Below, in pieces: positions 1-60,167 of a stretch of DNA of 64,000 nucleotides (position 1 is the stretch's first letter; each line of letters starts with the position of its first letter). The stretch covers positions 24,346,953 through 24,410,952 of the forward strand of contig NC_036445.1 in NCBI RefSeq assembly GCF_002775205.1, written 5' to 3'. Source of the stretch: Xiphophorus maculatus. Its lineage: Eukaryota > Chordata > Actinopteri > Cyprinodontiformes > Poeciliidae. Made by a program: the position numbers and the translations under genes. The notes beneath the pieces are model-generated. The model had not been told where the DNA came from, did not search any database, and was given only the letters and a program-made list of their open reading frames with translations.

Positions 1-116
1 CGTTGCCCATAATAATCCTTGGACATGTCCCAGACTCCTTGATAATGGAGGCAGGGACATGTCCCACTCTGTGTGGGCCATGTTCCACCCACTTCCTCCA
101 AAATGTGTCTAAAGCA

Positions 117-2192
117 CTATCTTTGTTGCTGGTCAGTTGTCACTTTGAGCCCTACACTGTATTCGTCCCGTCCTTCTGTGGCTTTTTCATAAATGTAGAT
201 ATACCCATTGCTGCAAACGTCAGCTCCACAGTCGGTATTCTCCAGTGATACCCGCTCATCCTCCGCCTTAAACACCAGTTCTCCACACACCAGATATGTA
301 TAAAAGTTACTGGTGTCAGAAGTTGTTTCCTGTCTCCGGCAAATGACGGAGGACAGATGATATAACTGTGTTCCATTTTTTACAGGAACCTCAAGGACTG
401 GGTCAGGTATCACAGGATTTCTGATATCGTCTGGACTGTCTGGCCATGGCAGAATCAGGGTCATCACATCAGTTTCATTAAAAAAGCAATCCCTCCTTTT
501 GTTGGACTTGCAGGTGTCGCAACTTTCTGACATTCCACTCCAATAATTCTCCAGAAGAGTTGATGTGGTGTCATTTTGTTGTTCCTTTGGCAGAGGAATG
601 ACAGGACCAAGGTTGCGAATAATTCTTGAACACTTCTGACATTGTTCACAGTAGTCAGTTGTATACAGCTTAGAGTTTGTGTAGATGTCACACTGGGCCA
701 GATAGTGCAACATATAAAACAAAAGGACTCCTGGCTTGTCCTGATGTTTAACATCCTTAATCTTCAAAGTTTCAACGAGTTCATTCTGAACAGCAAAGAT
801 CTCATGTGGAGGAAAGTCTCTTCCTGGATGGTACATTGCTGTAAAGAAACACCTCGCAAACAATGGTGTCTCTGCAAAAAGTTCCGAAATCTCCTCAGGA
901 TACTGAGCCACAAACCTTCTGACAATAGTCAAGTTCATGGTGCTTTGTGTTGTGGCATTCATCCAGCTGTTAAAAAAGGAGTTGGAGAATTTGCAAAAGT
1001 ACATTCCTGGGTAAATATTTACATCCATGGGGTCGAAATCATCGGTGTCGTTCTGATTTCCATCTTCTGAGTTTTCTTCTTCAGAAGACGATTCCTCTGA
1101 AGAAGAAAACTTATACACTTCTCCAAACTCTGTCCACATATCCTCTGCATTTGGGCTTCCAGAACAAATTTCCTCATCCTTAGTGGAAGCATCAACGTCC
1201 TTAGCGTAAATGCTATTGTAATGGTCAGGGTCATTTTCAGTGTCATCTACAGAGCTTTCTTCATCTGAAGACCATTCTTCTGATGAAGAATACTCAGACA
1301 CTTCATCAATATGTAACACAACATTTGCAGCATTTCTGCTTCCAGAGTCAACTTCCTTGGGTGAATCATCCATATCTTTAGTGTCCAGGTTCTCAAAGTG
1401 GTCTGTGTAATGGTCTGTTGATGGATTTTCAAAGACTTTTTCAAAATTCATCAGATTTTCCTTGCTGTCACAACTTTCTTTCACAGCCATTTGTTCAACA
1501 AAATTGTCAAAGTATTCTGGGGTGTCATCAATGTTCATTTCTGTGTCCCCAGAGTAGATTTCAAATTCCAGCTCCATTTTGATATCTGGAAGACAGACGT
1601 TTTCCAAAGCAGCAATGTCTCCAGATGTGTTGACTGTCAAATGCGTATTGATGGCAACTTCCTCAACTTTAGAGGAAGCATCAATGTCCTTCTGACGTTC
1701 AGGAAAAATGTCGAAACCCAAGTACTTTCCTGTCTTATCCTCTTTGAATTCTCCTGAAATTCCATCGTCTTTTACATTGTCTTCTGCAACAATGTCCAAT
1801 CCAGAGTACTTAAATTCTTCATCTTCCGATGAGCTCTCTGCTGAGGCATCACTTTGTTTTACATTGTCTTCTGCGACAATGTCAAAACTAGAGTACTGAA
1901 ATTCTTCATCTTCCGATGAGCTCTCTGCTGAAACAACACGGTGTTTTACACAGTCTTCAAAGAAATCTTCAAATCCAAAATACTTGTGTCGTTCATCTTC
2001 AGCTGATCTCTCTGCTGAAACATCACTTTGTCTTACATTGTCTTTGGCGACAATGTCTAAATCAAGGTGTTTTGAACTTTCGTCACTTGAGCTCTCTGCT
2101 GAAATGTCTTCATCTTTAATCCGATATCCCAGCAACTTCTCTACTCCCTTCGTGACAAGAAACCCAAGGCCCCAACCGATAGTTAAAATCAT
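117..2192 (-). CDS. Intronless acidic protein with a C-terminal USP-like (probably inactive deubiquitinase) domain, copy 1
   Basis: I do not recognise a named gene. One exon encodes 691 residues from the first in-frame ATG at 2192 (A at -3). The frame is open for 48 more codons upstream, to a TGA, without an ATG. Residues 1-13 are hydrophobic (MILTIGWGLGFLV), possibly a membrane anchor or short signal. Residues ~30-160 hold imperfect repeats built on AESSSEDEE and DIVAEDNVK. The middle is very acidic with SSSEE runs that look like casein kinase 2 targets. The last ~300 residues read like a USP fold: a degenerate Cys-box region (FSNSFFNSWMNATTQ), two CxxC pairs as in USP zinc fingers (CEQC, CDTC), LILPWP, and a YHLSSVICRR...FYTYLV...YIYIYEK end. 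The expected catalytic Cys and the His of the HY box are not seen, so a pseudoenzyme or scaffold is inferred. A near-identical copy lies 5044 bp away. The frame is confident; the family call is moderate. Confidence 0.7.
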   Translation of the reverse strand: MILTIGWGLGFLVTKGVEKLLGYRIKDEDISAESSSDESSKHLDLDIVAKDNVRQSDVSAERSAEDERHKYFGFEDFFEDCVKHRVVSAESSSEDEEFQYSSFDIVAEDNVKQSDASAESSSEDEEFKYSGLDIVAEDNVKDDGISGEFKEDKTGKYLGFDIFPERQKDIDASSKVEEVAINTHLTVNTSGDIAALENVCLPDIKMELEFEIYSGDTEMNIDDTPEYFDNFVEQMAVKESCDSKENLMNFEKVFENPSTDHYTDHFENLDTKDMDDSPKEVDSGSRNAANVVLHIDEVSEYSSSEEWSSDEESSVDDTENDPDHYNSIYAKDVDASTKDEEICSGSPNAEDMWTEFGEVYKFSSSEESSSEEENSEDGNQNDTDDFDPMDVNIYPGMYFCKFSNSFFNSWMNATTQSTMNLTIVRRFVAQYPEEISELFAETPLFARCFFTAMYHPGRDFPPHEIFAVQNELVETLKIKDVKHQDKPGVLLFYMLHYLAQCDIYTNSKLYTTDYCEQCQKCSRIIRNLGPVIPLPKEQQNDTTSTLLENYWSGMSESCDTCKSNKRRDCFFNETDVMTLILPWPDSPDDIRNPVIPDPVLEVPVKNGTQLYHLSSVICRRQETTSDTSNFYTYLVCGELVFKAEDERVSLENTDCGADVCSNGYIYIYEKATEGRDEYSVGLKVTTDQQQR

Positions 2193-2331
2193 TTTGACTG
2201 CAGTTGAAATGGTTTCTAAAATCACTGTCCGAAATCGTCTCTCTATCAAAGTGTTGTACCTCCAACGACGTTGAAAAGCAAACTGAGAATTCTTGTATTC
2301 CAAATGATAATAATAATCATTTGAACCTTTA

Positions 2332-2414
2332 TGACATCATCGATGAGAACATCGATGACATGATGATGTCAAACGACCTGTCAGGTTCTTGTTTGTTTTA
2401 GTTGCTATGGAAAC
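2332..2414 (-). promoter_or_regulatory. Candidate promoter of USP-like copy 1: CRE-like inverted repeat plus RFX X-box
   Basis: About 140-220 bp upstream of the copy 1 ATG there is an inverted repeat with arms TGACATCAT (2332-2340) and ATGATGTCA (2363-2371), each close to a cAMP-response element. Next comes GTTGCTATGGAAAC at 2401-2414, a very good match to the X-box bound by RFX factors. No TATA box is obvious. The block is repeated in copy 2. Binding is inferred from motif only. Confidence 0.45.
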
Positions 2415-2539
2415 ACAAGGAGTTATGTATGAGCTAAGACTACTGTCAATTAAAAATGCATGCGTAGACATCTAAATTTGTGAATTTAAGTCAATAAATG
2501 CATAAATTTAAGTTTTGTATTTATTGACTTAAATTCACA

Positions 2540-2693
2540 AGGTGTTTGTCCTGTCTGTCTCTGTGTTGCCCTGCGACAGACTGACGACCTCCAGGGTGAA
2601 CCCCTGGAAAGGGTTTTCTCTCGCCTCTCACCTTAAAAGTTAGCTGGAGATAAGCACCAGCACCCCTCATGACCCCACTAGGGAAATCACAAT
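2540..2693 (+). mobile_element. Fish LINE/SINE 3' tail fragment
   Basis: It contains the strings TGTTGCCCTGCGACAGACTG, then GGTGAACCCCTGG and AGCACCCCTCATGACCCCA. I know this arrangement as a very common 3' tail of a fish non-LTR element. A second copy in the same orientation lies at 3385-3550. The exact family needs a repeat library. Confidence 0.55.
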
Positions 2694-4405
2694 TAAATCT
2701 GTGTTCTCCAAAAAAGTTACTCATAAATATGCTCATTTCCATGGACTTATTCAATTTGTAGTCCACCTGTATGTACGTCCAGATAACGTGTTTCACACAA
2801 CTGGAGGAAAAGCACAAAGTATCAAGTTCTACAGAAAAGATGCTTGGTGTTGCACAATCTGCAGCTCAGCATCAGGAAGAGGAAGCAGCTCAGTGTAAGA
2901 GACTAAAGGGAGGAGAAAACATCTTCTTAAGGATCAAGAGAAGATGAGCTGGCCACATCACACAAACGTTAACAAAACACAAAGGCAGAAGCTGTTTTTC
3001 TTCAGCAGCTATTATATTTTGTCATTGATTCAAAGCTGCTGACCAGAAGCTGGTGCATCATTCAGTGTTGCAACACGCTGCATCATAGCCTGTGCCACTT
3101 CCACGCCTATGAAATGAATATTTCCACTTCCAATGACTGGAAAAACTGTTTTTATTCAGCCACTGTTTTATGTGTTGAAATTAATTGTTTCTTTTCACAT
3201 TAAATTATGAACACTGTTGACAGTGATGTAGTTAGAGATGCAGTTTATTATTTTAATAACTAAATCATTGAAGTTCAGTCTGTCTATAAAGTCAATATAT
3301 GTAAATGTGTTGAGCAGTTAGCAGCTGCTTGGTTGCCTGTCAGGCTGACTTGTCTCTCTAAGTTCTCCCTAGGTGTGAGTGTGTGTGTGCATAGTTGTTT
3401 ATCCTGTCTGTGTCTGTGTTGCCCTGAGACAGACTGGTGACCTGTCCACGGTGAACCCCACCTCTCGCCCATTGACCGCTGGAGATAGGGACCAGCACCC
3501 CTCATGACCCCAACAGGGATAAACATGTAAGATCATCGAAGGATGGATGTTAAAATGTGAGCAAAAAGTAATAACTCTGAAACAGGAAGAACAGAGGAGT
3601 GAATGACAGCCTTTATTCATGCAACCCCTTCTGCAAAACACAAAGTATTTGCATCTCTTGACACAATAACAAAACAAAAAGAATAAGACACAGTGCCACA
3701 TGTCTTATTCTTTTCTGGGAGCTGATGGAAATAAGATGCAAAGGTTTGTATTTGACTGATGCATCTAAAAGTATTTCTATCAGGGAATATATCATAAGCA
3801 TCAGCTTGCAGCAAGGACCATCTGCTGAGTTTAGAGTGGGTATTACATAAACTGAGTTATTTTTTGTTTTGATGAAGGAGGATGCAGGATCCAGCGACAG
3901 TCACCTGTGTTAAGAGCAAATATTCTAACCCTTAAAATTTTTCCTAACCGAAAACAGTGTGAAGTCTTTTATTTGGTAAGCAGCTCACATCATTCACATC
4001 TAAGCTGGCACTGTTCATATACAATATTTAAATACTCCAGTAAAACAACCCAGCATCTTTAGTTTCACTGTGAGCTTATTCCAGCCTCACTTTGGGTTAA
4101 TCAGGTTCTTGCTTGAAATGTACCACCGGTATTGATGCAGAGGAAGTAGCAGACCCGCCTCTCCTTAAGAGGCGAGCCAATCTGGAGGAAAGATTTTTGA
4201 AACCTAATAGTATGACCTTACGATATTTTCATGAGCTGAAACCTGTAAGTGAGACAAACAGATTGGGATCCTGGATGCAACCGTCTGGGCTCTGATTTCT
4301 GATGTTACGATTGCTGCTGCATGTCCTCTCCCTCTATCTTTGCCCATTTCTTCTCTGCTTCCTGTCAAAAACAACAACAACAACAACAAAAAACTAGTAT
4401 GTACA
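2694..4405. other. Intergenic, no gene seen
   Basis: Apart from the LINE/SINE tail at 3385-3550 I see no conserved frame here. The short open frames are not supported by codon pattern, splice sites or similarity. A short (CAA)n-like run lies near 4370-4390. Confidence 0.5.
3385..3550 (+). mobile_element. Fish LINE/SINE 3' tail fragment, second copy
   Basis: Same family as 2540-2693: TGTTGCCCTGAGACAGACTG, GACCTGTCCACGGTGAACCC, CACCTCTCGCCCATTGACC, GCACCCCTCATGACCCCAAC. It ends near GGATGGATG, the usual terminal repeat of such elements. No reverse-transcriptase frame is present, so this is a 5'-truncated insertion. Confidence 0.6.
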
Positions 4406-4624
4406 ACCACCGGCCACTTTATTAGGTACACCTTGCCAGTACTGGGTTGAACCCACTTTTTCCTTCCACGAAGGATTTTGCCTTAATCCTTTGTGGTGTA
4501 GATCCAACAAGGTCCTGGAAACATTCCTCACAGAGCCTGGTCCTTGTGGACATGATAGCATCACACTGTTGCTGCAGCTCTGTTGGCTGCACATCCATGA
4601 TGCAAAACTCGCGTTCCACCACAT
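4406..4624 (+). mobile_element. Fragment of a CACCGGCCACTTTATTAGGTAC-type DNA element
   Basis: It starts with ACCACCGGCCACTTTATTAG, continues with ACTGGGTTGAACCCAC and a region ending CCATGATGCAAAACTCGCG, and breaks off into the minisatellite at about 4622. I know this as a widespread fish repeat with terminal inverted repeats. A shorter, degenerate but two-ended copy lies at 62928-63121. No transposase is coded here. Confidence 0.55.
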
Positions 4625-5036
4625 TAGTCCCATTATAATCCCTCCCAAATGTCCCATATTAATTCCTCCCAAATGTCCCATGATAATTCCTCACAAATGT
4701 CAGAATATAATTCCTCCCATATAAAATCCTCGCCAAGGAATTAATATGGGACATTTGGGAGGAATTACAATGGGAAATATGGGAAAAATCCTCCCAAATG
4801 TCCCATTGTAATTCCTCAAAAATGTCCCATTATAATTCCTCCCAAATGCCCCATATTAAATCTTCCCAAAGGAATTAATGTGGGACATTTGGGAGGAATT
4901 ATAATGGGACATTTGGGAAAATTCCTCCCAAATGTCCCATATTAATTTCTCCCAAATGTCCCATTATAATTCCTCAAAAATGTCCCATTATAATTCCTCC
5001 CATATGTCCCATTATAATTCCTCCTAAATGTCGAGC
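4622..5036. repeat. 24-bp minisatellite in both orientations
   Basis: Units of about 24 bp, roughly CCCATTATAATTCCTCCCAAATGT and variants, are repeated about 17 times. Some runs (about 4735-4795 and 4866-4922) read in the opposite orientation, GGGACATTTGGGAGGAATTA, so the array can fold into long hairpins. It sits exactly between the two duplicated gene units. The unit also resembles the gene's 3' flank (CCCATAATAATCCTTGGACA at 5050). Confidence 0.85.
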
Positions 5037-5160
5037 TGATCTAGCGTTGCCCATAATAATCCTTGGACATGTCCCAGACTCCTTGATAATGGAGGCAGGG
5101 ACATGTCCCACTCTGTGTGGGCCATGTTCCACCCACTTCCTCCAAAATGTGTCTAAAGCA

Positions 5161-7236
5161 CTATCTTTGTTGCTGGTCAGTTGTCACTCTGAGCCCTACA
5201 CTGTATTCGTCCCGTTTTTCTGTGGCTTTTTCATAAATGTAGATATACCCATTGCTGCAAACGTCAGCTCCACAGTCGATATTCTCCAGTGATACCCGCT
5301 CATCCTCCGCCTTAAACACCAGTTCTCCACACACCAGATATGTATAAAAGTTACTGGTGTCAGAAGTTGTTTCCTGTCTCCGGCAAATGACGGAGGACAG
5401 ATGATATAACTGTGTTCCATTTTTTACAGGAACCTCAAGGACTGGGTCAGGTATCACAGGATTTCTGATATCGTCTGGACTGTCTGGCCATGGCAGAATC
5501 AGGGTCATCACATCAGTTTCATTAAAAAAGCAATCCCTCCTTTTGTTGGACTTGCAGGTGTCGCAACTTTCTGACATTCCACTCCAATAATTCTCCAGAA
5601 GAGTTGATGTGGTGTCATTTTGTTGTTCCTTTGGCAGAGGAATGACAGGACCAAGGTTGTGAATAATTCGTGAACACGTCTGACATTGTTCACAGTAGTC
5701 AGTTGTATACAGCTTAGAGTTGGTGTAGATGTCACACTGGGCCAGATAGTGCAACATATAAAACAAAAGTACTCCTGGCTTGTCCTGATGTTTAACATCC
5801 TTAATCTTCAAAGTTTCAACGAGTTCATTCTGAACAGCAAAGATCTCATGTGGAGGAAAGTCTCTTCCTGGATGGTACATTGCTGTAAAGAAACACCTCG
5901 CAAACAATGGTGTCTCTGCAAAAAGTTCCGAAATCTCCTCAGGATACTGAGCCACAAACCTTCTGACAATAGTCAAGTTCATGGTGCTTTGTGTTGTGGC
6001 ATTCATCCAGCTGTTAAAAAAGGAGTTGGAGAATTTGCAAAAGTACATTCCTGGGTAAATATTTACATCCATGGGGTCGAAATCATCGGTGTCGTTCTGA
6101 TTTCCATCTTCTGAGTTTTCTTCTTCAGAAGACGATTCCTCTGAAGAAGAAAACTTATACACTTCTCCAAACTCTGTCCACATATCCTCTGCATTTGGGC
6201 TTCCAGAACAAACTTCCTCATCCTTAGTGGAAGCATCAACGTCCTTAGCGTAAATGCTATTGTAATGGTCAGGGTCATTTTCAGTGTCATCTACAGAGCT
6301 TTCTTCATCTGAAGACCATTCTTCTGATGAAGAATACTCAGACACTTCATCAATATGTAACACAACATTTGCAGCATTTCTGCTTCCAGAGTCAACTTCC
6401 TTGGGTGAATCATCCATATCTTTAGTGTCCAGGTTCTCAAAGTGGTCTGTGTAATGGTCTGTTGATGGATTTTCAAAGACTTTTTCAAAATTCATCAGAT
6501 TTTCCTTGCTGTCACAACTTTCTTTCACAGCCATTTGTTCAACAAAATTGTCAAAGTATTCTGGGGTGTCATCAATGTTCATTTCTGTGTCCCCAGAGTA
6601 GATTTCAAATTCCAGCTCCATTTTGATATCTGGAAGACAGACGTTTTCCAAAGCAGCAATGTCTCCAGATGTGTTGACTGTCAAATGCGTATTGATGTCA
6701 ACTTCCTCAACTTTAGAGGAAGCATCAATGTCCTTCTGACGTTCAGGAAAAATGTCGAAACCCAAGTACTTTCCTGTCTTATCCTCTTTGAATTCTCCTG
6801 AAATTCCATCGTCTTTTACATTGTCTTCTGCAACAATGTCCAATCCAGAGTACTTAAATTCTTCATCTTCCGATGAGCTCTCTGCTGAGGCATCACTTTG
6901 TTTTACATTGTCTTCTGCGACAATGTCAAAACTAGAGTACTGAAATTCTTCATCTTCCGATGAGCTCTCTGCTGAAACAACACGGTGTTTTACACAGTCT
7001 TCAAAGAAATCTTCGAATCCAAAGTATTTATCTCGTTCATCTTCAGCTGATCTCTCTGCTGAAACATCACTTTGTCTTACATTGTCTTTGGCGACAATGT
7101 CTAAATCAAGGTGTTTTGTACTTTCGTCACTTGAGCTCTCTGCTGAAATGTCTTCATCTTTAATTCGATATCCCAGCAACTTCTCTACTCCCTTCGTGAC
7201 AAGAAACCCAAGGCCCCAACCGATAGTTAAAATCAT
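5161..7236 (-). CDS. Intronless acidic protein with USP-like domain, copy 2 (tandem duplicate)
   Basis: Second intact copy of the 691-residue gene, at an exact offset of +5044. By eye the open frames differ at about ten amino-acid positions, with roughly eight silent changes. Both keep the full frame, the repeats, the acidic SSEE tracts, the CxxC pairs and the apparent lack of catalytic Cys and His. One replacement falls within the first cysteine cluster (CEQCQK against CEQCQT), without loss of a cysteine; another lies just after it (IIRN against IIHN). Flanks are duplicated too: about 116 bp of 3' sequence and about 330 bp upstream, with similarity ending near 7563. Mixed silent and replacement changes without a stop suggest both copies have been kept under some constraint, but they are too similar for a strong statement. 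A collapsed allele or assembly artefact is possible, yet the different downstream sequences (2520 onward against 7564 onward) argue for a real duplication. Confidence 0.7.
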   Translation of the reverse strand: MILTIGWGLGFLVTKGVEKLLGYRIKDEDISAESSSDESTKHLDLDIVAKDNVRQSDVSAERSAEDERDKYFGFEDFFEDCVKHRVVSAESSSEDEEFQYSSFDIVAEDNVKQSDASAESSSEDEEFKYSGLDIVAEDNVKDDGISGEFKEDKTGKYLGFDIFPERQKDIDASSKVEEVDINTHLTVNTSGDIAALENVCLPDIKMELEFEIYSGDTEMNIDDTPEYFDNFVEQMAVKESCDSKENLMNFEKVFENPSTDHYTDHFENLDTKDMDDSPKEVDSGSRNAANVVLHIDEVSEYSSSEEWSSDEESSVDDTENDPDHYNSIYAKDVDASTKDEEVCSGSPNAEDMWTEFGEVYKFSSSEESSSEEENSEDGNQNDTDDFDPMDVNIYPGMYFCKFSNSFFNSWMNATTQSTMNLTIVRRFVAQYPEEISELFAETPLFARCFFTAMYHPGRDFPPHEIFAVQNELVETLKIKDVKHQDKPGVLLFYMLHYLAQCDIYTNSKLYTTDYCEQCQTCSRIIHNLGPVIPLPKEQQNDTTSTLLENYWSGMSESCDTCKSNKRRDCFFNETDVMTLILPWPDSPDDIRNPVIPDPVLEVPVKNGTQLYHLSSVICRRQETTSDTSNFYTYLVCGELVFKAEDERVSLENIDCGADVCSNGYIYIYEKATEKRDEYSVGLRVTTDQQQR

Positions 7237-7375
7237 TTTGAATGCAGTTGAAATGGTTTCTAAAATCACTGTCCGAAATCGTCTCTCTATCAAAGTGTTG
7301 TACCTCCAACGACGTTGAAAAGCAAACTGAGAATTCTTGTATTCCAAATGATAATAATAATCATTTGAACCTTTA

Positions 7376-7458
7376 TGACATCATCGATGAGAACATCGAT
7401 GACATGATGATGTCAAATGACCTGTCAGGTTCTTGTTTGTTTCAGTTGCTATGGAAAC
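7376..7458 (-). promoter_or_regulatory. Candidate promoter of USP-like copy 2: CRE-like inverted repeat plus RFX X-box
   Basis: Duplicate of the block upstream of copy 1: TGACATCAT and ATGATGTCA arms followed by the X-box GTTGCTATGGAAAC at 7445-7458. The motifs are unchanged while flanking bases differ slightly (AAACGACC against AAATGACC). The same regulation is expected for both genes. Confidence 0.45.
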
Positions 7459-7714
7459 ACCAGGAGTTATGTATGAGATAAGACTACTGTCAATTAAAAA
7501 TGCATGTGTAGACATCTAAATTTGTGAATTTAAGTCAATAAATGCATAAATGTAAGTTTTGCATTTGTCCTGTTTTTCAACTCATACGTACGTGTAATTT
7601 TACCTATGAGAATACTCATAAACAAATAAATTAATACAAGTGTTTTTGATAGGTTTTATAGAGAGTAAGTATTTTTCTAGAAGTTAGACACACATCAGTC
7701 ACGTTTAGAAACTG

Positions 7715-8655
7715 GCTCTAAACCATCTGCTTGATCTATTTTGAACTGGGAGTGAGGAGGATCCTCTTCAACTTATCATGTCTTGCCTTAATTACTTGCT
7801 CTGTTCATAAGGAAAACATTTAACAACATCTAATAATTACATTATTTTTTTTACATTTGAACTCAGTGAAAAGGATGATTCACCAAACAGATCATCAGCC
7901 AAAGAACTTTATGTCTAATCTCACCTTATTTATTTATTTTTTACATTTTTCTCATTTTCTAACACCCCCATCTCAGCCTCTTCACTGTGTTTTTATGAAT
8001 CGCCCCTTTCAGAGATCTTCTGTTTACTCTTACCACTGCAGCATAAAGTGACACCCTACCCAAAACATTTGCAATGGAGATTTTATTCTTGAGTTTAGTT
8101 CTTTGGTTGCATTGCTAGACCAGTTAATGTGGTTCTTCCAGGATAGCTGCGTTTTGTCGCCCTCTCCTGGTCATTGTTGAGTAAATGAGTTTTTTTCTTC
8201 CGTGTTGTGTTATTAAGCATGTTGTAATAATAATAATAATAATAGTAATAAAAAAACATAATAAAAGTAGCAGCATATAATAACTGAACAGCTTGCCAGT
8301 AATTTGTGGCACTTCAGTTTAAGTTCAATTTAAATTAAGACCAGATCAGTTTTTGGTCCCTTGAACAGAAAAATATTTTTCATTTTCTTATCATAGGGTT
8401 TAATTTCCTTTTATGCCTTTTATGTCATGTCAATTTCATCTTCAAAAGATATTTACTTTGAAAGTTAGTGACGTGTTAACTTAATGTTAAATACTTTAGG
8501 CTATACGGATAATATCCAGTAAATTTTAATATTATTGAAGTTCATTTATTTCAGGAACTTTATCACTAATTGAACACATTATGTAGATTAATTACACATA
8601 TGGATGTTTGATATCCTTTATTTCTATTAAGTGTGATGATTTTCCTCTAACAGTT
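7715..8655. repeat. Interspersed repeat copy, inverted partner of 52690-53375
   Basis: The stretch matches the reverse complement of 52690-53375 over several hundred bases, with gaps. Examples are AACTTATCATGTCTTGCC against GGCAAGACATGATGTT, CCAGTAATTTGTGGCAC against GTGCCACAAATTACTGG, and ACATATGGATGTTTGATATC against ACATCAAACATCCATATGTG. No coding frame survives. It may be a non-autonomous transposon or part of a larger element. It also carries a (TAA)n run near 8227-8242. Confidence 0.75.
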
Positions 8656-13800: not shown

Positions 13801-16800
13801 ATATGAACTGAAGAAGACTGAAATTAAATTTAACAACTGCGTCAACAAAATATTTGCTCAAGTTTGTGCATCGAGGGTTTTTAAGGACATCTTCTTTCCT
13901 GCTTGTTTTTCACCTGAACTATGTTTATGCAGAAAAAAAATCAAAAATTATTTATACATGTCTAATCTTTGCATCTCAAAACTTTGTATTGTATTGTGTA
14001 CGCAATTTAAGAGTCACTGTTTGAGCATCATTACCAGTTCTTCTCCGTTTTGCTTGTTGATCCAGTGCAGCTCAGGCTGCGGGTGACCAGTCACGTTACA
14101 GGACACAGAGACACGCTCACCCACATTCACACTGTGCTGATCTTCTGAGAGAAACACCTCTGGAGACTCTGTACGTAAAACAAGAATCATCATCTTGCTT
14201 CAGTACACTCTATAAGAATGGGAGAAACTAATTGACGGAATGTGAAAACCAACCAAAGACATGCAGCATGAACGTAGCGCTGCTCTCAGCGATCTTGTTT
14301 TTGGCCGTGCAGACGTACTCCCCGAAGTCGGCCCTGACGACGGACTGGATGGTGAGCTGGCTGCGGTCGGAGTTGAAGAGGTGGCGGGACGGATCGAACT
14401 CGAAAGGCCTTAGGATGAAAAATAAAAAAATGGTTTCATGTCCTGTTTGTGTGGAGTCAGTGACTGTAGGCGACAAGAAAACCAGCAGACGGAGGCAGAA
14501 AATTTGAGACAAAAGTAAATAATGACGCAGAATATTAACACAGAAAAACTGCCTTTTCTTTACTCGGCCCATCTTAACTTATGCTTTTTGTATCTTGTGT
14601 TGTGGCTGAGATGGAAGTTTCTTACACTGACCTGCCTTTTGTATGTTTTTAAGGCAAATGTTGATTTCAGTGCAACTGATAGTTTGCAATGGTTGAGGAA
14701 AAATGTCTCTTCCAAACATATCTTGTGAGCAGAAATCAGTGCGATGTTTGATAAAATGCATTTTCAGACATTTTGTTCGTACAATCTGACGAATTGTATG
14801 AACAAGAATCAAGAATCTGAGTCAAGAATTTAAATTGTTCTAACTTAAAATAAGTAATTAAGCCTAACTTGATCATGTGAGTGAGACTAACGCAGAAATT
14901 TGTACAAACGGTCTAAAACTGTTTCTATTGCAAGTAAATGTTCAAGGCTTCTAGTATTGTACATTTAAGATGGTGATTTTTGAAAAAAAAAAAAAAAGGT
15001 TTCACCTTACAAATAAAAGCAAATTGTTAGTAGAAATACATCAACTAGACATTTAAAAATGTCTACAATCTTGTAATCAAAGCCTTAGGCTTTTAAAGAA
15101 TTCATGTGAATTTCAAGTATTCAAAGTAATTTATATATAGTAATATAAGAAAATGGTGGCTTACAGAGTCCAAGTGATGTTGGGTTTTGGCAGACCATCA
15201 ACCAAACACAGCAATGACACATTGGTTTCAGGCCCAGCAATCACTTTCTTCACTTCTTCTCTGATATGCACAGTCGGAGGAGCTGCAGTGGGAGACATAT
15301 TGTTAAACGAAGTTACAAAAATTGAAAGAAAAATGAAATAGGACTGAGTTACTTGTAATGGTCCTGTATGCCTTTGGATACCATAAAGAAGTGACTAACC
15401 GTTGGCGACAACAGAAACAGGAAGCTGCTTGTAGATTGCTCTCCCTCTGATCTGGGCCTGGCAGATGTATGTCCCGGCATCGCTCCTTTTCACTTTCTCA
15501 ATATGAAGCGTGTTGTCGGACATCTTACGAACACGAACTCCAGCTGAAGAAAAGGAGCCAGACAAGATCACATTAGCAGCTTATTCACATCCTATTTTTA
15601 ATCACGTTACTGCAGCTGGTCAAAGTTGATCAGACTCTTCCTCTAGTAAGCAAAACAAAACTTCATACTTCAGTATGACTTATGAGTCTTAATGTAGCAC
15701 ACATCATTTTTAAGATAATATGAGAGATGGGAAGGTTTTCAGACACAACATTGTATATTCAGAAACATTCAATGGTGACTGATGCAAAAGGAAAAGGAAG
15801 TACTGAACAATGGCAGCAAGTTTTATTTTACCCCCAGTGCTAAACCTGCAACTGTCCTCGCATTTTACTTCCAACATAATGTAAACAGTTTCAAACAAAT
15901 TGCACTCCTCATTGATAATAATATCCACAAAAACATCTATTATTATAATTCGACTAAGGCCATAATAACATTTTCCAATATTCTCTAAAAAACAAACATA
16001 AAGTCTCTTTAAATATTCTCAGATGAGCCGGTCCGTGTCTGACAGAAACTCAAGTTTTTTATGCTAGGTGTCTTTAGCTTAAAGTTTCTTAAAAGTTTGA
16101 AACTAAACTGGAAAAACGTTCACATTTTTCATAAGATCAAAAATGATCCGTTTTTATTCTCTTCAGCTGCGTCTCTAAATAAAATGTGCACATTTTCTAG
16201 AGCACGGGTGCTTCATTTAAAGGTTTATGCTGTGTTGTGATACAAAAAAAAACCTCCAACCTTTAGGCATAAATGTGCCGATAGCTTGATTTATTGTTCA
16301 AAAGTGCTTTCAGAAGTTCAGAGCGCACTAATGTCTGTCATAGCACCCCCTACTGGTGAGTGGCATTGATTTTATTTTATTTTTCTACCTAAACAGTGGT
16401 ACATACAGTACAGACCAAAAGTTTGGACACACCTTCTCATTGAATTCAATGAGAAGGTGTGTCCAAACTTTTGGTCTGTACTGTATGTCATGCTGAAGTT
16501 ATGAGGAAAGTGTCATTTTTATTTTTAAGAAGAACAATGAGTTTCATCGCGAAAACTCATTTCCCTCCATGGGTTGGAGCCCCTGTTTAACAAACATGCT
16601 TGATGCTCTAGATTACTTGACTGAAGAGATTTTCAGGTTATGTTGCAAAAACAGCAGCATGGCAGTTAAAGAAATACAACAATTAAAGAAATTGATTAAA
16701 GAAATACAACAATAAGAGGATATTTTGAATTCTGAGTTGGTTGTAAATTACTAACCACAAGGCATATTTTTGGGGTGTAAAACGTTTTCTAGGTGATGGT

Positions 16801-49880: not shown

Positions 49881-51332
49881 TAAACTGTCGACCGAATGAA
49901 AGGTTCCGCATGAAGCCTTTATTTCTTCCAAGATTTTATGTTTTCACTATTGTCAACTTTTGGAGTTAACTAAGGCTGAGTTATGGCACCACATTACACC
50001 ACACACTATCAAAAAATGTGTATAAAGAGGAAACACATTTTCAACCTTAGACTTGCAAAAGTAATATTCAAAGATAGTTAAATTCTCTGTGCATCAATTT
50101 TTTGGCAACAAAATGCAACTAAATATTTTTTAAAGAATTTATACAATGTTGGTCAACTGGTCAAAATTTATTTTCATTTGTCAAATGCAGAACAGCAAAA
50201 CTGAAATGGGCTATGTTATGACCAACACTTAATAATTTCATTTTTGTACCTCTGTGACTGAATCACATCAACAGGAATTTCATATTTATTGCTATTTATT
50301 TATGTTTTTATTCTGTATGTGATGTTTTTGATTTAGTAATATGCCTAATGTAAAATTTTCACTGTTCCTTGTGGGGTTTTTTCCTTTAATACAATGGATT
50401 TGCCTGTATTTATTACATAAATGTTCTGTTAAAAATGTGTAACTCCAAAATACTTTAAAGAAAATTGATTATTAAATTGTCACCAGACTCACCCATCAGA
50501 AGGAACCTTCACATATCCCAGCTCATTCACAAGTATTACTCTATGCAACACTTTTGGAAGGGTTTATTTAAATTTTATCTTTCTTTCTTTTGTTTCATTT
50601 TTTCCCCACACACCAGCTTTTTTTTCTATCCACATCATTGATTTAGCTTCTGAGTTGAATGTTGACTTTTTAAATATCTTTAAAACTGTCCAGAAGCTTT
50701 TCTTGTCATGTGTGAATGGATAAATTAACACATTGTAGACAGCCGTTAAATATATTGCTAGAAACAATTAAAATACAACAATTACATTTCAAAGATTCTA
50801 CAGTACATCATAAAACATTAGTACATCACAAAGGAAATAAATCATGCTACTCCCAAGCAAGGAAAGGGCATATCATATTTTTAAATACAATATTTAAAAT
50901 GCAAGTTCAAAACTCTACAGTGCTAAGGGGAAGAAAGCTTCACGTTTTCTTCTTATGTATTTGTAATAGCAGATAAGGTTTCCTCTTTCTGAGCAGTCCC
51001 TGCTGGTCCAGTCAGCTGTGTTATATTTTAGCAACACAGTGTTTCCACTGGCTTAAGCAGCATAACTTTTCCCATTGGTCCAATTAAATCTTTAAGTCTT
51101 AAATTTCAAGTTTTCATCAGCCGTAAATCAAAATTGATAAAGGTATGAAAACTTTAGGACATGTGTAGTCAGACTACGTAATGCATTCTACTAAGCAAAC
51201 TGAGGTATTGAAATACAAGAACTTATCAAAAATATTCAGACTTTTTGGATATGACTGCTTACATCTCTAGGTGTACAGTACATATATACATGAACACAGA
51301 GAGAGCGCTAGTCATCATTCTGTTACTTCTTC
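49881..51332. other. Intergenic, no complete gene; lectin-like 3' remnant near 50985-51050
   Basis: Mostly AT-rich non-coding sequence. On the minus strand the part around 50985-51050 resembles the end of the lectin last exons: the plus strand reads TTTCTGAGCAGTCCCTGCTG, GTCCAGTCAGCTGTGTTATA and CACAGTGTTTCCACTGGC, as at 51375-51440. This looks like a fragment of a fourth lectin copy. No intact exon is left. Confidence 0.5.
50935..51055 (-). pseudogene. Truncated remnant of a lectin last exon
   Basis: Plus-strand GAGCAGTCCCTGCTGGTCCA, followed by GTCAGCTGTGTTATATTT and AACACAGTGTTTCCACTGGC, matches the 3' part of the final exons of the three lectin genes. Similarity stops after the CACTGGC, where the WWWSDGE-coding part should begin. 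The frame is not preserved. It is probably the leftover of a partial duplication in the same cluster. Confidence 0.55.
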
Positions 51333-52372
51333 CTATATGTATACTTTTTCATAATAGCAGATGAAGTTTCTTCTTTCTGAGCAGTCCCTGCTGGTCCAGT
51401 TAGTTGTGTCGTATTTGGAGACGGTCCCACAGTGTTGCCACTGACTCGGACAGTCTGGCAGCATCTCCTGTTGGTCCAACATCTCTCCGTCCGACCACCA
51501 CCACTCCCCTCCCAGAAAACGCAATCCTGTCCAAACCTGGTGGACACAAGGCAAATGAAACAAAGTTTACAATTCTGACCTTGTAGAACAAGAATAAATC
51601 TCTCGAGTGATTACCAGACCTCCTCGGTGGTGGCTCTGTAGATCCGATCTCTCACATAGCTCAGGTCAGATGAATATCTAACGCTCAAGAGGTCATACTT
51701 ATAGGTTGCATTTGTCATTTTCCTGCAGTGATTCAGAGCATCCTCCCATGTCTCGTTCTCAGTCACCAGCACCAGATTGTCTTCATAGCAGTTGAAGGGA
51801 AGCGGATGGGAGCAAGCTGTGCTGTACCACTTTCTATTTGAGATGTGATAATTGCAACAGCTGTCGTCAAATTGCTGACCAGAGGCCCAGTTCTTGCTCT
51901 GTGAGACGTCATCTCCCGTCAAGCCTTCACCAGTTCTGAAGCATACACACCAGCAGCTTAAATGTCTGAACTGAATTAATTGTTATGTTTAAATATGACA
52001 CCAGCTCACTCACTTCACATTGATCCACCTCCAGACTGACTCTTGCTCAGGATCCTTGTGTAAACCAATCCATACATTGTCGTAGCCGTTGTTCTTCAGC
52101 CACGTAGTCAGCAGATTCGGGTCTACTATGTGCCAGGTAACCATGTCTATGTGGTTCCTCTGGCAGTACTGTCGTGCTTCGTCCCATGGAAGTGCCTGAG
52201 ATTGAATAGTAATGAATATGATCAGCCTAGCTTCCAAACAAAACACAATCGTACAAAGGAGGAGTAGTGTAAGCTCAGGTTTATGGGAACACTGTGAACA
52301 ACAAGTCCTAAAACAAACGAACTCAACCAAATTCACCCCTGTGCCTGTCTGTAGAAGTCCGAGTTCCTTCAT
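51333..52372 (-). CDS. Double C-type-lectin-like domain protein A
   Basis: Three exons, 52014-52372, 51620-51935 and 51333-51536, join in phase to 292 residues. Exon 1 plus most of exon 2 gives the first CTLD (ALPWDEARQYCQRNHIDMVT, VWIGL, WRWINVK, LPFNCY). The rest of exon 2 plus exon 3 gives the second (TWEDALNHCRKM, VWTGLRFLGGEWWW, RRNFICYY). NET, NAT and NWT sequons suggest glycosylation. Neither domain shows EPN/QPD or WND, so calcium-dependent sugar binding is doubtful. Relative to B and C, the N-terminus is odd: the MGRxG start and the TATA promoter are missing. The only ATG is at 52372, which adds about 30 unrelated residues before the hydrophobic stretch TLLLLCTIVFCL. The gene may be expressed from a new start or be on its way to a pseudogene. 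Confidence 0.75.
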
Positions 52373-52454
52373 GTTTGATTCAAATGTTCTGCATTCAAAC
52401 TAGTCTCTGCTCTTATGGGCAGGGCAGGCTACATGTAAACGACTGAATTTGAAT
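52373..52454. repeat. Lectin-cluster upstream element, copy 1
   Basis: TTTGATTCAAATGTTCTGCA, then TTCAAACTAGTCTCTG, GGCAGGGCAGGCTACATGTA and AATTTGAAT. Copies lie at 57014-57100 and 61624-61710, about 4.6 kb apart each. In gene A this element touches the start codon; in B and C it lies 1.5-1.8 kb upstream. Confidence 0.7.
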
Positions 52455-52689
52455 CATGGTGCTATAGGATTGTGAGCCAATTATCTGTCAGGAAATCTAT
52501 GTGGGTCACCTTGCTTTTGTGTTAATTGGACTGAAATACTCCGAACTGCGCAGCAAGAGTACAAATTGAGGTGATAAAAGTTAAGTTAGCATGACTAACC
52601 TACTCTCCACGGCATTTTCTTTATAGTTTTTTAATTAAAGCTTTTTTACTGACCCGTGAAATGTGATCCCCTTAGACCTTGTTATCTGT

Positions 52690-53375
52690 TTTTGGAAAAT
52701 CATCACAGTTAATAGAAATAAAGGACATCAAACATCCATATGTGTAATTAATCTACATAATGTGTTCAATTAGTGATAAAGTTCCTGAAATAAATGAATT
52801 TACAGAATATTATCCGTGTAGCCTTAACAAGAATTTAACATGTCACCAATTTTCAAAATAAATATCTTTTATAGGTGAAATTGACATGACATTCTCTCAC
52901 TGAGTCCAGGCGTGAAAGAAAATCAAACCCTAGTTTTATGGTAGGAGGGTTAAAAAAAAAAAGTTCTGTTCAAGAGACCAAAAACCAAAATAAAGTGCCA
53001 CAAATTACTGGCAAGCTGTTCAGTTATTATATGCTGCTACTTTTATTATGTTTTTTTTTATTGCAACATGCTTAATGACACAATAGGGGGAAAAAACTCA
53101 TATACTCAAGAATGACCAGGAGAGGGCGACAAAACACAACTAAACTGAAAGAAGAACATTATCTGGTCTTGTAAATCAATCAAAAAAGCAAGCTCAAGAA
53201 CAAAAACTAATAATTAGATGTTGGATGTCTTAATTATTAGATGCTGTTAAATGTTTTCCTTATGAATGGATCAATCAATTAAGGCAAGACATGATGTTAT
53301 GTTTGCCAGCCTTAACAGGATCCTCCTCACCCACAGTTCAAAACAGATCAAGCTTAGACTTAAGGGGATAAAGAC
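52690..53375. repeat. Interspersed repeat copy, inverted partner of 7715-8655
   Basis: Reverse-complement match to 7715-8655 over most of its length, with insertions and deletions. It shares the motif CCAGGAGAGGGCGACAAAAC with its partner. It lies between lectin genes A and B. Confidence 0.75.
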
Positions 53376-54228
53376 ATTTCATCAGAAAACCAGCACCTAA
53401 AACCAGTTAAATACACATTTAATATCCTCTCAGCATGTTCAACAAAAGTTTGAAGTATGACGAGTAATAGTTATACCAAAAAGTGGAGAAGACGTTCAGG
53501 ATAGGAAATGTAATGAACTGCTCAGTCTTGCTGTTTTTATCTCGAGTTCTTGCTGGACTTTCTCATGTTGACAAGATGTTTTTACTAAATTGCAAACAGT
53601 TAATAAAGCCAAGAAACGGGTTACGTGGTGAGTAAATAAAACAAATTATTTCAAATCACTTTATTCTCGGGAGCAAAATGTAAAATGCCTCAAATCAATT
53701 CAGTCAGTACAAACGAACTAATTTAATTTGAAATAAAATAATTCTACGTGATAAAACACAACAAAGCAAAATACAAATTTAAAAGGGTGATTCTCCTAAA
53801 TCCTACGTCACAAATCCATGCAGAAGAAGCAGAGTGGTCCAAATCAAATCCAAAACATACAGTACATTTAGATTCAATTTCTCCATATTTAATGATTTGA
53901 GATTCAGACTCTCTGTTGCTCTGTTGGGAGTAATAACACCAACAGAGTCCATTCAACTAGCAAAAAATATTCATAGGAAGAATATGATGATTATTACCAT
54001 TTCCCAAATATTCTTACCCTATATTGTGGACAAGAAATCCTTTGCAATAACTGAGATTCAATATATTTAGCAGATGTATAGTCATATCCAACAAACTAGA
54101 ACAAGTGTTCATATTGTCTGTCATTATTATGGCACTTAGCTAGCAACTAGAAATAACTTTGGTGTCTCTAACTGACCTAAAGTACATAGAGAGACAAAGA
54201 GCTAGATTTTGTCTTGCTCTTTGGTAAT
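53376..54228. other. Intergenic between lectin genes A and B, no gene seen
   Basis: AT-rich, without splice-supported frames. The part near 54228 is probably the 3' UTR of gene B. Confidence 0.4.
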
Positions 54229-55211
54229 TTATTTCTGTAGTTTTACATAATTGCAGATGAAGTTTCTTCTTTCTGAGCAGTCGCTGCTGGTCCAGTTGGC
54301 TGTGTTGTACTTGGACAGCATGCCACAGTGTTGCCACTGGCTCGGACAGTCCGGCAGCATCTCCTGTTGGTCCAACGTCTCTCCGTCGGACCACCACCAC
54401 TCCCCTCCCAGGAACCGCAATCCTGTCCAAACCTGTTGGACGTGGGCCAAGATTTCAGCAGCAATATCAAAATAAATCCTCAACATATTTATGGTCTGGT
54501 TATTGCAGAAACAGCAAGTGACAAAATCAACCAAACCTCTTCACTGGTGGCTCTGTAGATCCGGTCTCTGACGTAGCTAAAGTCAGGTCTTGTAACGCTC
54601 AGGAGGTCGTACTTATAGGAGGCGGATGACATTTTCCTGCAGTGATCCAGGGCTTCCTCCCATGTCTTGTTCTCAGTCGACAGCACCAGATTGTCGCCAT
54701 AGCAGACAAATGGAAGAGTGTCGGAGCAAACACTGCTGAACCACTTTTTTCTTGAACTGTTATAAGAGCCACAGCTGTAGCTGTTTTTTGATTGTTCGGA
54801 CCAATAACTGCTCTCTGAAACATCCTCTCCTGTCAAACCTTCACCGGTTCTGAAAAAAAAAAAAAAAAAAAGATGTAAAATTAGTTTCTGTTATAAACAT
54901 AGAGATTGCACCAAAAAGGAAACTCACTTCACATTGATCCACCTCCAGACTGACTGTTGCTCAGGATCCTCGTGCAAACCAATCCAGACTGCAGTCAGTT
55001 CATCTTCCTGCAGCCACTTAGTCAGCTGGTTCGGGTCTACTATGTCCCAAGTAATCATGTCTATGTGGTTCTTCTGGCAGAACTGTCTTGCATCGGTCCA
55101 TGTCAGCTCCTGAGAAATCAAGTAAATGGTTTTTAGGAGTGTGGTTTCCATCAGAAGCGCGGCGTTAAAAAGGAGCAGCAGCATCAACTCAGGACGGCCG
55201 TTCCTCCCCAT
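54229..55211 (-). CDS. Double C-type-lectin-like domain protein B, secreted
   Basis: Three exons, 54928-55211, 54537-54849 and 54229-54432, join in phase to 266 residues. MGRNGRPELMLLLLFNAALL is a clear signal peptide. The first CTLD has LTWTDARQFCQKNHIDMITW, VWIGLHEDPE, VWRWINVK and LPFVCY. The second has TWEEALDHCRKM, YVRDRIYRATSEE, VWTGLRFLGGEWWW and RRNFICNY. With no membrane span it should be secreted. Canonical sugar-binding EPN/QPD and WND motifs are absent, so a protein or other ligand is likely. It is the middle gene of three tandem copies. Intron 1 ends in a long T-run before the acceptor (54851-54870 on the plus strand is A-rich). I cannot name an orthologue; teleost genomes hold many such lectin-like genes, often tied to immunity. 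Confidence 0.82.
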
Positions 55212-55270
55212 TTCCTGTCCCGTTGTCGCATCAAGTCCGATGTGTCGACAGCCGGAGAGAAAAATGTCAA

Positions 55271-55276
55271 TTTATA
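55271..55276 (-). promoter_or_regulatory. TATA box of lectin gene B
   Basis: Minus strand CTGGTATAAATTGACA, 60 bases upstream of the ATG at 55211. The same layout is present upstream of gene C, and the surrounding ~120 bp are conserved between the two genes. Confidence 0.65.
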
Positions 55277-55931
55277 CCAGTGTAGAGGTCAGCGTCACTC
55301 AGACACGCCTCAGTGAATCCAGCTGACCAGCAGAAACATTTCCCTACCTGCTGTTGGAGAAATTTAACTAACACTTGGGTCAGACGTTCCTGCTGTGCAC
55401 CAAACACGACATTCTGAATATATTCATTTATAATTTGCTTAATTAATCTGGTAGAGTTTCAAGAAGAACAATTTACAAACTAAGAAAATATCTTTTTTGA
55501 CAAATATTTCAGTTTGACGTTTTATTAAGCCCGTTGCCTTTTTGGCTGTCTTTATTTGTCTTCATTCTCTGTAACGCCACACATTTTCAGCAAATTGTTT
55601 CGGTTCGTATTCAAATCCGTTTCAGTCACTCAGGAGCAGAAACCACATCAACACGAGTTGATTTGTGAGAAACACTAATGGAGGGATTGTACATAATCAA
55701 TCCTATTAATAATTTAGCTTTTATATGTGAACATGATGTCAAATAAACAAATAAAACAGATCCAAATGCAGTCATGCATGTTTCAGTAGCTGTTCATTTC
55801 ATTGGTTTGGTGACTTATTCAAATTGTCCTCATTTACAAAGCATGGCTGGTAGGAAAATCTGCCTCCAGGTAAATGATCCAATTTGACATGCTAATTAGC
55901 TCAGCCTTATTTGATATAATAAAAACAGGTA

Positions 55932-56067
<136 letters not shown>

Positions 56068-56400
56068 ATACACACACGTTTGTATTTTTATCCATAGTAG
56101 AACTTTGCATTGACTTCCATTCTTTGTATCAGCTGCATTTGGGCTTAACCTGACTTTTTCCCTAAGTCCAATAGTTGATTGTTTGATTGTTGATTGTAGT
56201 CTTTTCCTGACCCTAACCTTCACCAAAACCTAATTTACACCATATCTCTAAACCCCTGACCTTTAACCTTTAACCTTTAACCCTAAACAAGGAGGGCTAC
56301 CATATTAGGGCCAGGCTTTGGTCGGCTATAAGGCCCATCGGTCTCCAGAAGGTTAGTAAAAGTGGCAGAAGTGATACTAAATATGATAGCTAGAGAAGAA

Positions 56401-56474
56401 CACACACACACACGCACACACACACACACACACGCACACACACACACACGCACACACACACACACACACACACA
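56401..56474. repeat. (CA)n microsatellite with CG interruptions
   Basis: A run of CA units with several CACG variants. The CVCVCV open frame on the minus strand is an artefact. Confidence 0.95.
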
Positions 56475-57013
56475 TGCACAAAGCAACATCATTTAAGGTT
56501 TTGTATCCTTAAATGAAATGATTATTTTCAGAAGGATTTCAGCCATTATATAATATATAATTTGGATATTTAAGTTGTTTATTTATTTGGATGGTTTGTC
56601 AATTTAAAGTTGCAGTTGAGACTGTGGTAACTTCTGATTGCAACCAAAATATTGTTCAGATGAAACCATCACTGATGCACTAAGTCAATTGGCCAATTTT
56701 CTTTGACAGGCTCTGATTAACAGCAGATCAAATGCTGAAATAAAAAAATCTGACTATGTTTCTCAATCTGTAAAGACACAAAAATGCTCTTTGATTGGCT
56801 CATTTGGGACCGGTTAAAATCACAGAGAAGCTCCCAGAACTATCACAGGCAGAAAAGCAGTAATTGTAACTACAATGAAATCCAGTCCATGATTTTCTGT
56901 CATGCTGTGCAACAACAGCAGAGACACTTAAAATATCTAACTAAATACAAAAAATCCAGATCCCAGCCATAGGCCATGTTCTGTCTGACAGTCGAAGTCA
57001 TTTTTTTGCGCAG

Positions 57014-57100
57014 TATTTAATTCAAATTTTCTACATTCAAAATAGTCTTTGGGCTTGTGCGGCAGAGATCGGGCTACATGTAAAACACTTCATTTGACTC
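57014..57100. repeat. Lectin-cluster upstream element, copy 2
   Basis: TATTTAATTCAAATTTTCTA, then CATTCAAAATAGTCTTTGGG, GATCGGGCTACATGTAAAAC. Collinear with copies 1 and 3. It lies upstream of gene B. Confidence 0.7.
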
Positions 57101-57389
57101 TTTGAAAGAGATGCCGATGAGGAAATGAGAAAGTAATTCTCATTTACTTGTAAAAATGTTAAATTAATGTGTCTTTAACAAACCAAACAAAAATCGATTA
57201 AAATGTCAACGTTGGTCTGAATCCTCAAAAATCAATCCAAAATAAACGTTACTGGACATAAATGTAAGTGTAGTAAACAAAATTTGTCAAAGGCGGATCA
57301 TTTAAAGAGACGCGCCGAACGCTTCTTCTCACTGCTGGGATTGTTTATTGTTTCAACATTTCTGAAATCCTCATGAGCCGAATAATACA

Positions 57390-57760
57390 GCCTTAAAAAT
57401 GTACATACACCCCCATTAATATTTGGTTGTGTGTCCCTTACAACCTGCCTACTGTAACAGTAAAGAAAGTTGTAGCAGAAATTTGACCTGAATTAGTACG
57501 GCTTGTTTTAATAAATGGATTGGCAGAGGTGGATCTGGCTTTCATGACTTATGGGCTTATCCTGATGGAGAAATGCACATTTAAAACGTTTTACTCAGGA
57601 AAACTTTCTCCAGATGATTCTTAGATTTTCCAGTGTGGCTATAATATCTTTGTAGTGGCTTTGCAAGCTCTGATTAGTTTAGCACACTGAGGAGCTACAC
57701 CTGTGGATGTATTTAAAGGCAATTCTTCAAACATGTCACCACTATTAGTGCCTCACAAAT
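57390..57760. repeat. Probable old DNA-transposon-derived repeat
   Basis: It begins GTACATACACCCCCATTAAT and ends with GAGCTACACCTGTGGATGTA and AACATGTCACCACTATTAG. Similar strings occur in Tc1-like fish repeats I know. It is degenerate and non-coding, so the family is uncertain. Confidence 0.35.
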
Positions 57761-58736
57761 GTTGATAAATTGAGCTAGAAATTGTAGACTTAGATGTCCA
57801 AAACTATCATATTCAAAATACGTCCTAATTATTGCGCTTTTCTGGGTTTCATCTTCCTGCCTCCCAGTTCAAATTTGTCTGCTTGATCTCATTTTGATGT
57901 CTGATTGATCTCAAGATACACAAGCAACATAGGACACATTGTTGGGTTTCTTCTTTAATTCAGTCAAAATTACAGCTACCGTATATCTAATTATCACACT
58001 AATATTATAAGAATACAGTGCATGCAAAAAAATAAAATAAAAAATAGGTAAACTGAAGATTCAAGACCAAGTTACAAACTTTGGTTTAGTGCTAAACGTA
58101 CATTCATACAATTTTAATTCGGTTTAGTTGAATTCAAATAAACTCTGTTGATTTCAGTCCAGCTCTATTCAAATCATTTCCCTTCAGGTCATTTTACTTT
58201 AGATTAATAACAAAAAAAAATAGCTTTCATTAATTCAGTTCAGTTCAAATCAGACTGATTCGGTTCAGCTCAGATGAACTCAACGGGTTTCGATTCAGTG
58301 TAGTCAAACTAAATGAAACTTAACTGAGTTGCATGTAATAAAGCTGAAATCTGCACACAATAGAAACAGCCACGCTCACTCGAGAGAGACCAAGTCACCC
58401 AACATGCACATATCAGTGTCCTTTGAGGACGCATGCTGGAAGAACATGAAAAGTTATTGTTGCATAAAGTCTTAACCATTGTGCCTCTGTGCGGCCACAC
58501 GAAAGAAACCAACGGGTCAAATTTAATGACATACGTCAAGCTTGTTCCCAATGAATGTTCATCCTAATCATGCTTCTCAGCCCTGAAATCAGCCGTAATA
58601 CATGCAGGTGACATAACATCTCTGATCTCCCCGTGCGAGTTAAGAAAATGGCATTTTGGACATTCCTGAACTTTTCTAATAAATACGATTCGTCTATCAG
58701 AACAAAAGCCTGCGTGTGCAGAAAGCAAGCATGGAC
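57761..58736. other. Intergenic between lectin genes B and C, no gene seen
   Basis: No exon is supported. It contains repeated TTCAGTTCAG/ATTCGGTTCAG-like strings near 58090-58300, a low-complexity patch. Confidence 0.4.
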
Positions 58737-60100: not shown

Positions 60101-60161
60101 CTTTGCTCCTGTTGTCACGTCAAGTCAGATGTGTCGGTGCTGGAGAGAAGCCTGGTGTCGT

Positions 60162-60167
60162 TTTATA
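60162..60167 (-). promoter_or_regulatory. TATA box of lectin gene C
   Basis: Minus strand CTGGTATAAAACGACACC, about 62 bases upstream of the ATG at 60100. It lies within a block conserved with gene B (GTCAGTGTCACTTAGACACA against GTCAGCGTCACTCAGACACG on the plus strand). Confidence 0.65.

Follow-up and report, generated by a model that had tools for sequence, protein, structure and literature searches.

Two nearly identical intronless genes lie head to tail at the left end of a 64-kb stretch of the Xiphophorus maculatus genome (C3:24346953-24410952; hereafter the window), which contains no N. Both are on the minus strand, copy 1 at 117..2192 and copy 2 at 5161..7236, and each is a single open frame of 691 codons, whereas base shuffling of the coding sequence, repeated 500 times, gave no stop-free stretch longer than 162 codons. 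The two ORFs are offset by exactly 5,044 bp. Positions 1-2522 align with 5045-7566 without a gap, 2,496 of the 2,522 bases being identical (98.97%). Eighteen of the 26 differences fall in the coding sequence, where they affect 16 codons (nine amino-acid and seven synonymous changes); the 330 bases upstream contain eight and the 116 bases downstream none. An earlier reading made from the sequence only had described two intact, intronless frames of this length at this offset, differing by eye at about ten amino acids and about eight silent sites. The ORF coordinates and the ungapped alignment bear out the frames, and the counts come close to the estimates.

The encoded protein consists of an acidic N-terminal part (residues 1-392) and a domain resembling ubiquitin-specific proteases (USPs; residues 393-691). 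The former includes 87-bp (29-residue) acidic Ser/Glu repeats, located at 1770..2061 in copy 1 and at 6814..7105 in copy 2 (minus strand). Differences between the copies are clustered: five of the 26 lie within 18 bp (P 0.0006), at codons 69-74 of copy 2 inside these repeats, and four of the five copy-2 letters are common with another family copy, C3x1.

The 5′ flanks (2193..2522 and 7237..7566, minus strand) have both kept the promoter motifs ascribed to them: an RFX-type X-box (GTTTCCATAGCAAC; 2401-2414 and 7445-7458), which begins 222 bases upstream of the ATG, and a pair of TGATGTCA-type sites on that same side, at distances of 179 and 147 bases. The X-box pattern occurs only at these two places in the 64-kb window (mean 0.16 in 50 shuffles), and the exact 14-mer is present in 14 of the 31 family loci scanned, several of which are without the promoter region. 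We discarded the possibility of an MHC-type SXY promoter: a CCAAT box is absent and the TGATGTCA-type site does not adjoin the X-box. Because RFX2 has been described to act through X-boxes in mouse spermiogenesis (PMC4498915), the window genes could perhaps be expressed from their own RFX-type promoter, maybe in the male germ line or in ciliated cells.

Nine of the ten neighbouring frames scanned match Ig domains (a cell-adhesion-type gene), C-type lectin domains or DUF2053, the last of which we take to be TMEM147. A C-type lectin exon cluster at 51300-60250 contains three repeats with 72-95% DNA identity, and a perfect 88-bp palindrome at 16401-16488 looks like a miniature inverted-repeat element. 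Rfam gave no matches in the 64-kb window.

Flanks, junction scar and mosaic copies

The block shared by both copies measures just 2,634 bp. On the right it occupies 4933..7566, with 98.6% identity to -111..2522; the left block (1..2522) extends outside the window to about -111, in agreement with the earlier remark that the window starts inside the left unit. Leftward agreement ends at about -111 and 4933, inside a 24-bp satellite that contains inverted segments and lies downstream of copy 2 (4627..5032). Further left, the flank of copy 1 matches that of the copy C14a (91% over 921 bp), and the flank of copy 2 matches C20 (96.4% over 2,062 bp). The spacer (2541..4626) includes two copies of a dispersed repeat and is common to C20, over those same 2,062 bp, to a second C3 array (98.3% over 1,605 bp) and to C18 (97.5% over 277 bp). 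Beyond 7566, copy 2 has the flank common in the family, seen also at C2, C3x3, C6 and C14b. Since the left flanks differ, one clean 5-kb tandem duplication fails to explain the locus: the head-to-tail pair proposed in the sequence-only reading is real, but it probably did not arise by simple duplication of one unit. A C20 locus (C20:10247436-10250666; L010) contains the spacer and satellite followed by the flank of window 8107-8222, the gene itself being missing; by its sequence it resembles a unit from which the gene has been lost.

A junction scar (2478..2540) lies at the 5′ side of copy 1. Homology stops at 2522, and the next 18 nucleotides (2523-2540) are the reverse complement of 2478-2495, a fold-back insertion within a 22-nt perfect inverted repeat (2478-2499 and 2519-2540), after which the dispersed repeat begins. 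A 44-mer across the scar is found with zero mismatch at eight places in the genome, spread over three chromosomes and always next to a member of the family: window copy 1, C3 at 24.678 and 24.684 Mb, C14:27154407 and all four C18 copies. The same 44-mer written backward, as a control, has no genome match. Both unrearranged sides are also present, the left one (native repeat before GGTGTTTGTCC) on C20 and the right one (ATTTGTCCTGTTTTTC) in window copy 2, C3x3 and C2. By these sequence matches, the C3 and C18 arrays and one C14 copy share a single end-joining scar. In both C3 arrays the ordinary 5′ flank is found only in the rightmost copy (window copy 2; C3:24688142), as head-to-tail duplication predicts. 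Short complementary insertions copied from the flank, called snap-back insertions, have been described for polymerase-theta end joining (PMC4912351), and in Caenorhabditis elegans tandem duplications have been attributed to this pathway (PMC7368036). The window junction likewise has a short complementary insertion copied from its flank, although here the event is known from its scar alone and the enzyme is presumed.

The junction is common to copies whose gene bodies (C3x1, C14a and C18a) are 2-5% away from those of the window copies, which points to an arrangement older than the 99% identity suggests and to gene bodies that have probably been homogenised by exchange between copies. The term "recent" in the earlier reading thus suits the sequence identity but not the junction shared by C3, C14 and C18. 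At many of the 26 differing sites C3x1 or C3x3 carries the letter of copy 2, at several C3x1 carries that of copy 1, and in the tree of the USP-like domain copy 2 clusters with C3x1 and apart from copy 1 (99/80). A four-combination test on seven copies was positive for 730 of the 2,145 pairs of 66 informative sites (Rm 25), counts that can be raised by parallel change. Judged by these patterns the copies are mosaics, and we infer that gene conversion and unequal exchange have produced the mosaicism.

The family across the genome

A search of the 704-Mb assembly (101 contigs) gave 146 matches at the DNA level and 94 at the protein level. A hand count of the protein matches, which is a lower bound, places the family at about 56 or more places on 14 contigs, so that a multiplying gene family, as had been proposed, is indeed present. 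Near copies on C3 comprise the window pair and three others at 24.675-24.690 Mb, beyond the right end of the window by about 265-280 kb; elsewhere they occur on C2, C18 (four in tandem), C14 (two), C15, C4 and C6. The sequence-only reading had supposed that more copies may lie to the left: none was found in roughly 10 kb leftward, and the further copies are to the right and on other contigs. Copies within arrays are offset by 5,044 bp (window), 5,994 and 6,455 bp (second C3 array) and 5,567-5,864 bp (C18), the recurring element being an intronless USP-like ORF in a head-to-tail unit of about 5 kb.

C6 contains about 14 near copies, five of which are N-terminal parts only; several C6 copies and the C15 copy are broken. 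In two C6 frames (L020:7830-9821 and L022:3238-4869) the N-terminal part is followed in frame by unrelated repetitive C-terminal sequence of the GSLEGTLGSSEGK type, and these are possible gene fusions. On C5 about 11 places hold diverged relatives, most of them interrupted by stops; the mostly broken relatives at C5:30.46-31.23 Mb include five in near-identical places, some of them 3,085 bp apart. Distant relatives with 33-48% identity and open frames of 664-1,232 codons occupy 17 places on C11, C19, C24, C9, C21, C23, C18 and C14. At C11:4365157-4368489 (L029:555-4250), a single open frame of 1,232 codons contains three USP repeats. Neither the whole protein nor its USP-like part found a relative in scans of viral contigs, and thus no viral origin is indicated there.

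USP membership, catalytic sites and selection

The window domain alone matches the Pfam UCH/USP family PF00443 with E 0.02 and 15.0 bits, below the cut-off of 23.9. Five of ten paralogs pass this cut-off (C11 with 99.2 bits, C19 with 31.6, C24 with 41.8 and two on C23 with 37.6 and 39.4), and the best match is that of the C11 protein with its three repeats (3.9e-28). C14b does not pass (15.6 bits, E 0.013), and the C9, C21, C18b and C14c paralogs gave no UCH row in a Pfam scan at E up to 1. Through the five paralogs the family is assigned by sequence to the USPs, and the label "USP-like" given earlier is therefore right. Against a profile of six USPs, of which five sequences are provisional, residues 410-537 and 606-670 of the window protein aligned in order with 5.4 bits in total, a score attained by one of the 778 shuffles reported (1,000 were made, 222 being unreported). 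In this weak match the Cys, QQD and His boxes are collinear, and the alignment of paralogs agrees. Comparison of the window domain with the six-USP alignment by hhalign gave a probability of 1.1% (E 0.048); against the profile, the score of the full-length protein was -1.7 bits. Both copies also have two CxxC zinc-finger pairs, C515/C518 and C558/C561, a predicted metal site. The whole window protein had no match among solved structures, and the hits that its USP-like part gave to CSF-1 and cadherin-3 structures (E 0.21-0.47) were dismissed as chance level. With just two near-identical rows as input, structure prediction gave a model too poor to use (pLDDT 37, pTM 0.34); a fold search with it found nothing at E ≤ 0.001.

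Both window copies have Ser409 at the site of the catalytic Cys and Asn629 at that of the catalytic His. Among 30 aligned domains (a 31st row, the 26% relative L013_3933, was dropped before the tree was made), the Cys site holds Cys in 18 and the His site holds His in 8. The clade defined by Ser409 comprises both window copies, C3x1, C3x3, C18a, C2 and C14a; it has support of 99/98 in a tree whose deep joins involve long branches, and its seven rows all show Ser at the Cys site and Asn or Ser at the His site. Twelve other near copies have Cys at the Cys site and never His at the His site. Both residues are kept in six distant domains (C11 repeats 1 and 2, C19, C24 and two on C23), and the remaining pairs are Ser/Gly (C9, C21 and C18b), Ser/His (C11 repeat 3) and Gly/His (C14c). 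Because these combinations differ between branches, the catalytic residues of the family have probably been lost more than once. The presence of Ser409 and Asn629 where the six distant domains keep Cys and His leads to the prediction that the window copies are pseudo-deubiquitinases.

The earlier reading had recommended a dN/dS comparison of the two frames. Over the whole frame, the Nei-Gojobori method gave dN 0.0061 and dS 0.0195, and thus dN/dS 0.31 (Fisher P 0.016; one-sided binomial P 0.017); in the USP-like part alone, the value for the window pair was 0.53 and not significant (P 0.29). Pairwise comparison was extended to 11 copies picked as intact or complete, the pairs not being independent of one another. 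In the USP-like part of the Ser409 clade, eight of nine pairs had dN/dS values of 0.13-0.26, the most significant being C18a versus C14a (P 4.8e-8). C14b against window copy 2, C4 and one C6 copy gave 0.23-0.29 in this part, the C14b-C4 and C14b-C6 pairs having by coincidence the same counts although the sequences differ, and a C6 pair gave 0.53 (P 0.085). The N-terminal part ranged from 0.19 to 0.77 across all 13 pairs. By these ratios, the USP-like part of the Ser409 clade is under purifying selection in most pairs.

Origin of the pair and known counterparts

We consider it reasonably probable that the pair belongs to a large intronless USP family dispersed over the genome, within which it forms a small head-to-tail array, born with the scar, then spread and homogenised, and that it encodes a pseudo-deubiquitinase. 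Breakage at a unit's 5′ end would have been followed, after fold-back (snap-back) synthesis such as that by polymerase theta, by joining to a dispersed repeat 3′ of a unit. Unequal and ectopic recombination would then have enlarged the array and carried copies elsewhere, with gene conversion keeping neighbouring copies alike. The protein may act by binding rather than cutting, its ligand being ubiquitin, a ubiquitin-like protein or a partner, and the acidic N-terminal part would possibly serve as a tether; USPs with Cys changed to Ser are standard substrate traps at the bench.

Other histories can be imagined for the locus. One recent, simple tandem duplication of the 5,044-bp unit, with 1% divergence since, would account for the exact offset and for 26 mismatches in 2,522 ungapped bases, but it is unlikely: the junction of copy 1 is also found at C14, at C18 (four) and in the other C3 array (two), the scar-bearing gene bodies compared (C3x1, C14a and C18a) are 2-5% from the window copies, the left flanks differ, and the USP-like domain of copy 2 groups with that of C3x1. 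About 1% divergence also falls in the range of fish heterozygosity, and the pair would then be two haplotypes of one gene set in tandem by the assembly. Such false heterotype duplication is described as a frequent assembly error (PMC8081667), but it is hardly credible here, because the specific end-joining scar recurs at seven other places, making eight on three chromosomes, beside family copies; moreover, the window is free of N and the two copies carry different flanks. The gene may have been carried as cargo by a spreading mobile element, as relatives on 14 contigs and the dispersed repeats and satellites flanking the copies might suggest. This, too, is unlikely: no common element ends were seen, the shared 5′ flank stopping at 7609 (C4), 7823 (C2) and 10193 (C14b) in window coordinates, and ATG-initiated ORFs of at least 100 codons in window 1-8000 are only the two genes, their antisense frames and a 100-codon frame at 3399-3701.

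As for the protein, USP39 has been proposed, and USP52/PAN2 reported, to work as a deubiquitinase with other residues (PMC10919355). A deubiquitinase working in this manner would be compatible with the conservation of the USP-like part in most pairs and with the 13 Cys found past residue 390 in copy 2, but both the Cys and the His site are replaced in all seven rows of the clade, and we regard it as very improbable. That the copies are decaying, functionless by-products is decidedly unlikely: the broken relatives on C5 and several on C6 and the fast-evolving N-terminal part point in this direction, but most pairs of the 11 copies, chosen as intact, show purifying selection on the USP-like part.

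The nearest analogue of the window pair, which we put forward as a pseudo-deubiquitinase array, would be the human RS447/USP17 megasatellite. RS447 is described as a 4,746-bp tandem unit with a 1,593-bp USP17 ORF in arrays on chromosomes 4 and 8; RS447/USP17 (DUB-3) has rodent relatives (mouse and rat DUB genes) and many intact ORFs, and its copies are more alike within species than between (PMC2874809). The window gene is likewise one ORF in a tandem unit of about 5 kb with arrays on more than one chromosome. However, USP17 is described as a deubiquitinating enzyme whereas the window copies are without the catalytic Cys and His, the arrays here are short (two, three and four copies) and the window protein has a long acidic N-terminal part. 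The similarity of the window domain to USP17 is also at noise level (29%, E 0.66). Orthology with USP17 finds no backing in the six USPs compared by BLASTP, five of them with provisional sequences, none of which is consistently nearest: the best match is USP17 for the window (at that E value) and for C19 (1e-6), USP7 for C11 and USP2 for C24. USP39/Sad1 and USP52/PAN2 are similar in that their USP domain is without canonical catalytic residues and has other roles (PMC10919355). Those proteins work in splicing and mRNA deadenylation, whereas the window family is multicopy and intronless, with catalytic residues that vary between branches. USP39/Sad1 and USP52/PAN2 are single old genes.

A teleost intronless USP family was not found in print in the open-access (PMC) literature, to which the search was confined. 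More speculatively, the family might be a fish counterpart of RS447/USP17, in which catalysis was lost several times (Cys/His to Ser/Asn, to Ser/Gly and by single losses) and in which germ-line expression or genetic conflict drove the multiplication and conservation of copies that bind ubiquitin but no longer cut; this is a tentative idea, more doubtful than probable. If the conserved, multiplying copies are pseudo-deubiquitinases, they would be natural experiments on the USP fold without catalysis, in several branches within one genome, and would add to RS447/USP17 a further vertebrate example of an intronless USP gene in tandem arrays. The shared end-joining scar permits the birth, spread and homogenisation of the arrays to be traced base by base.
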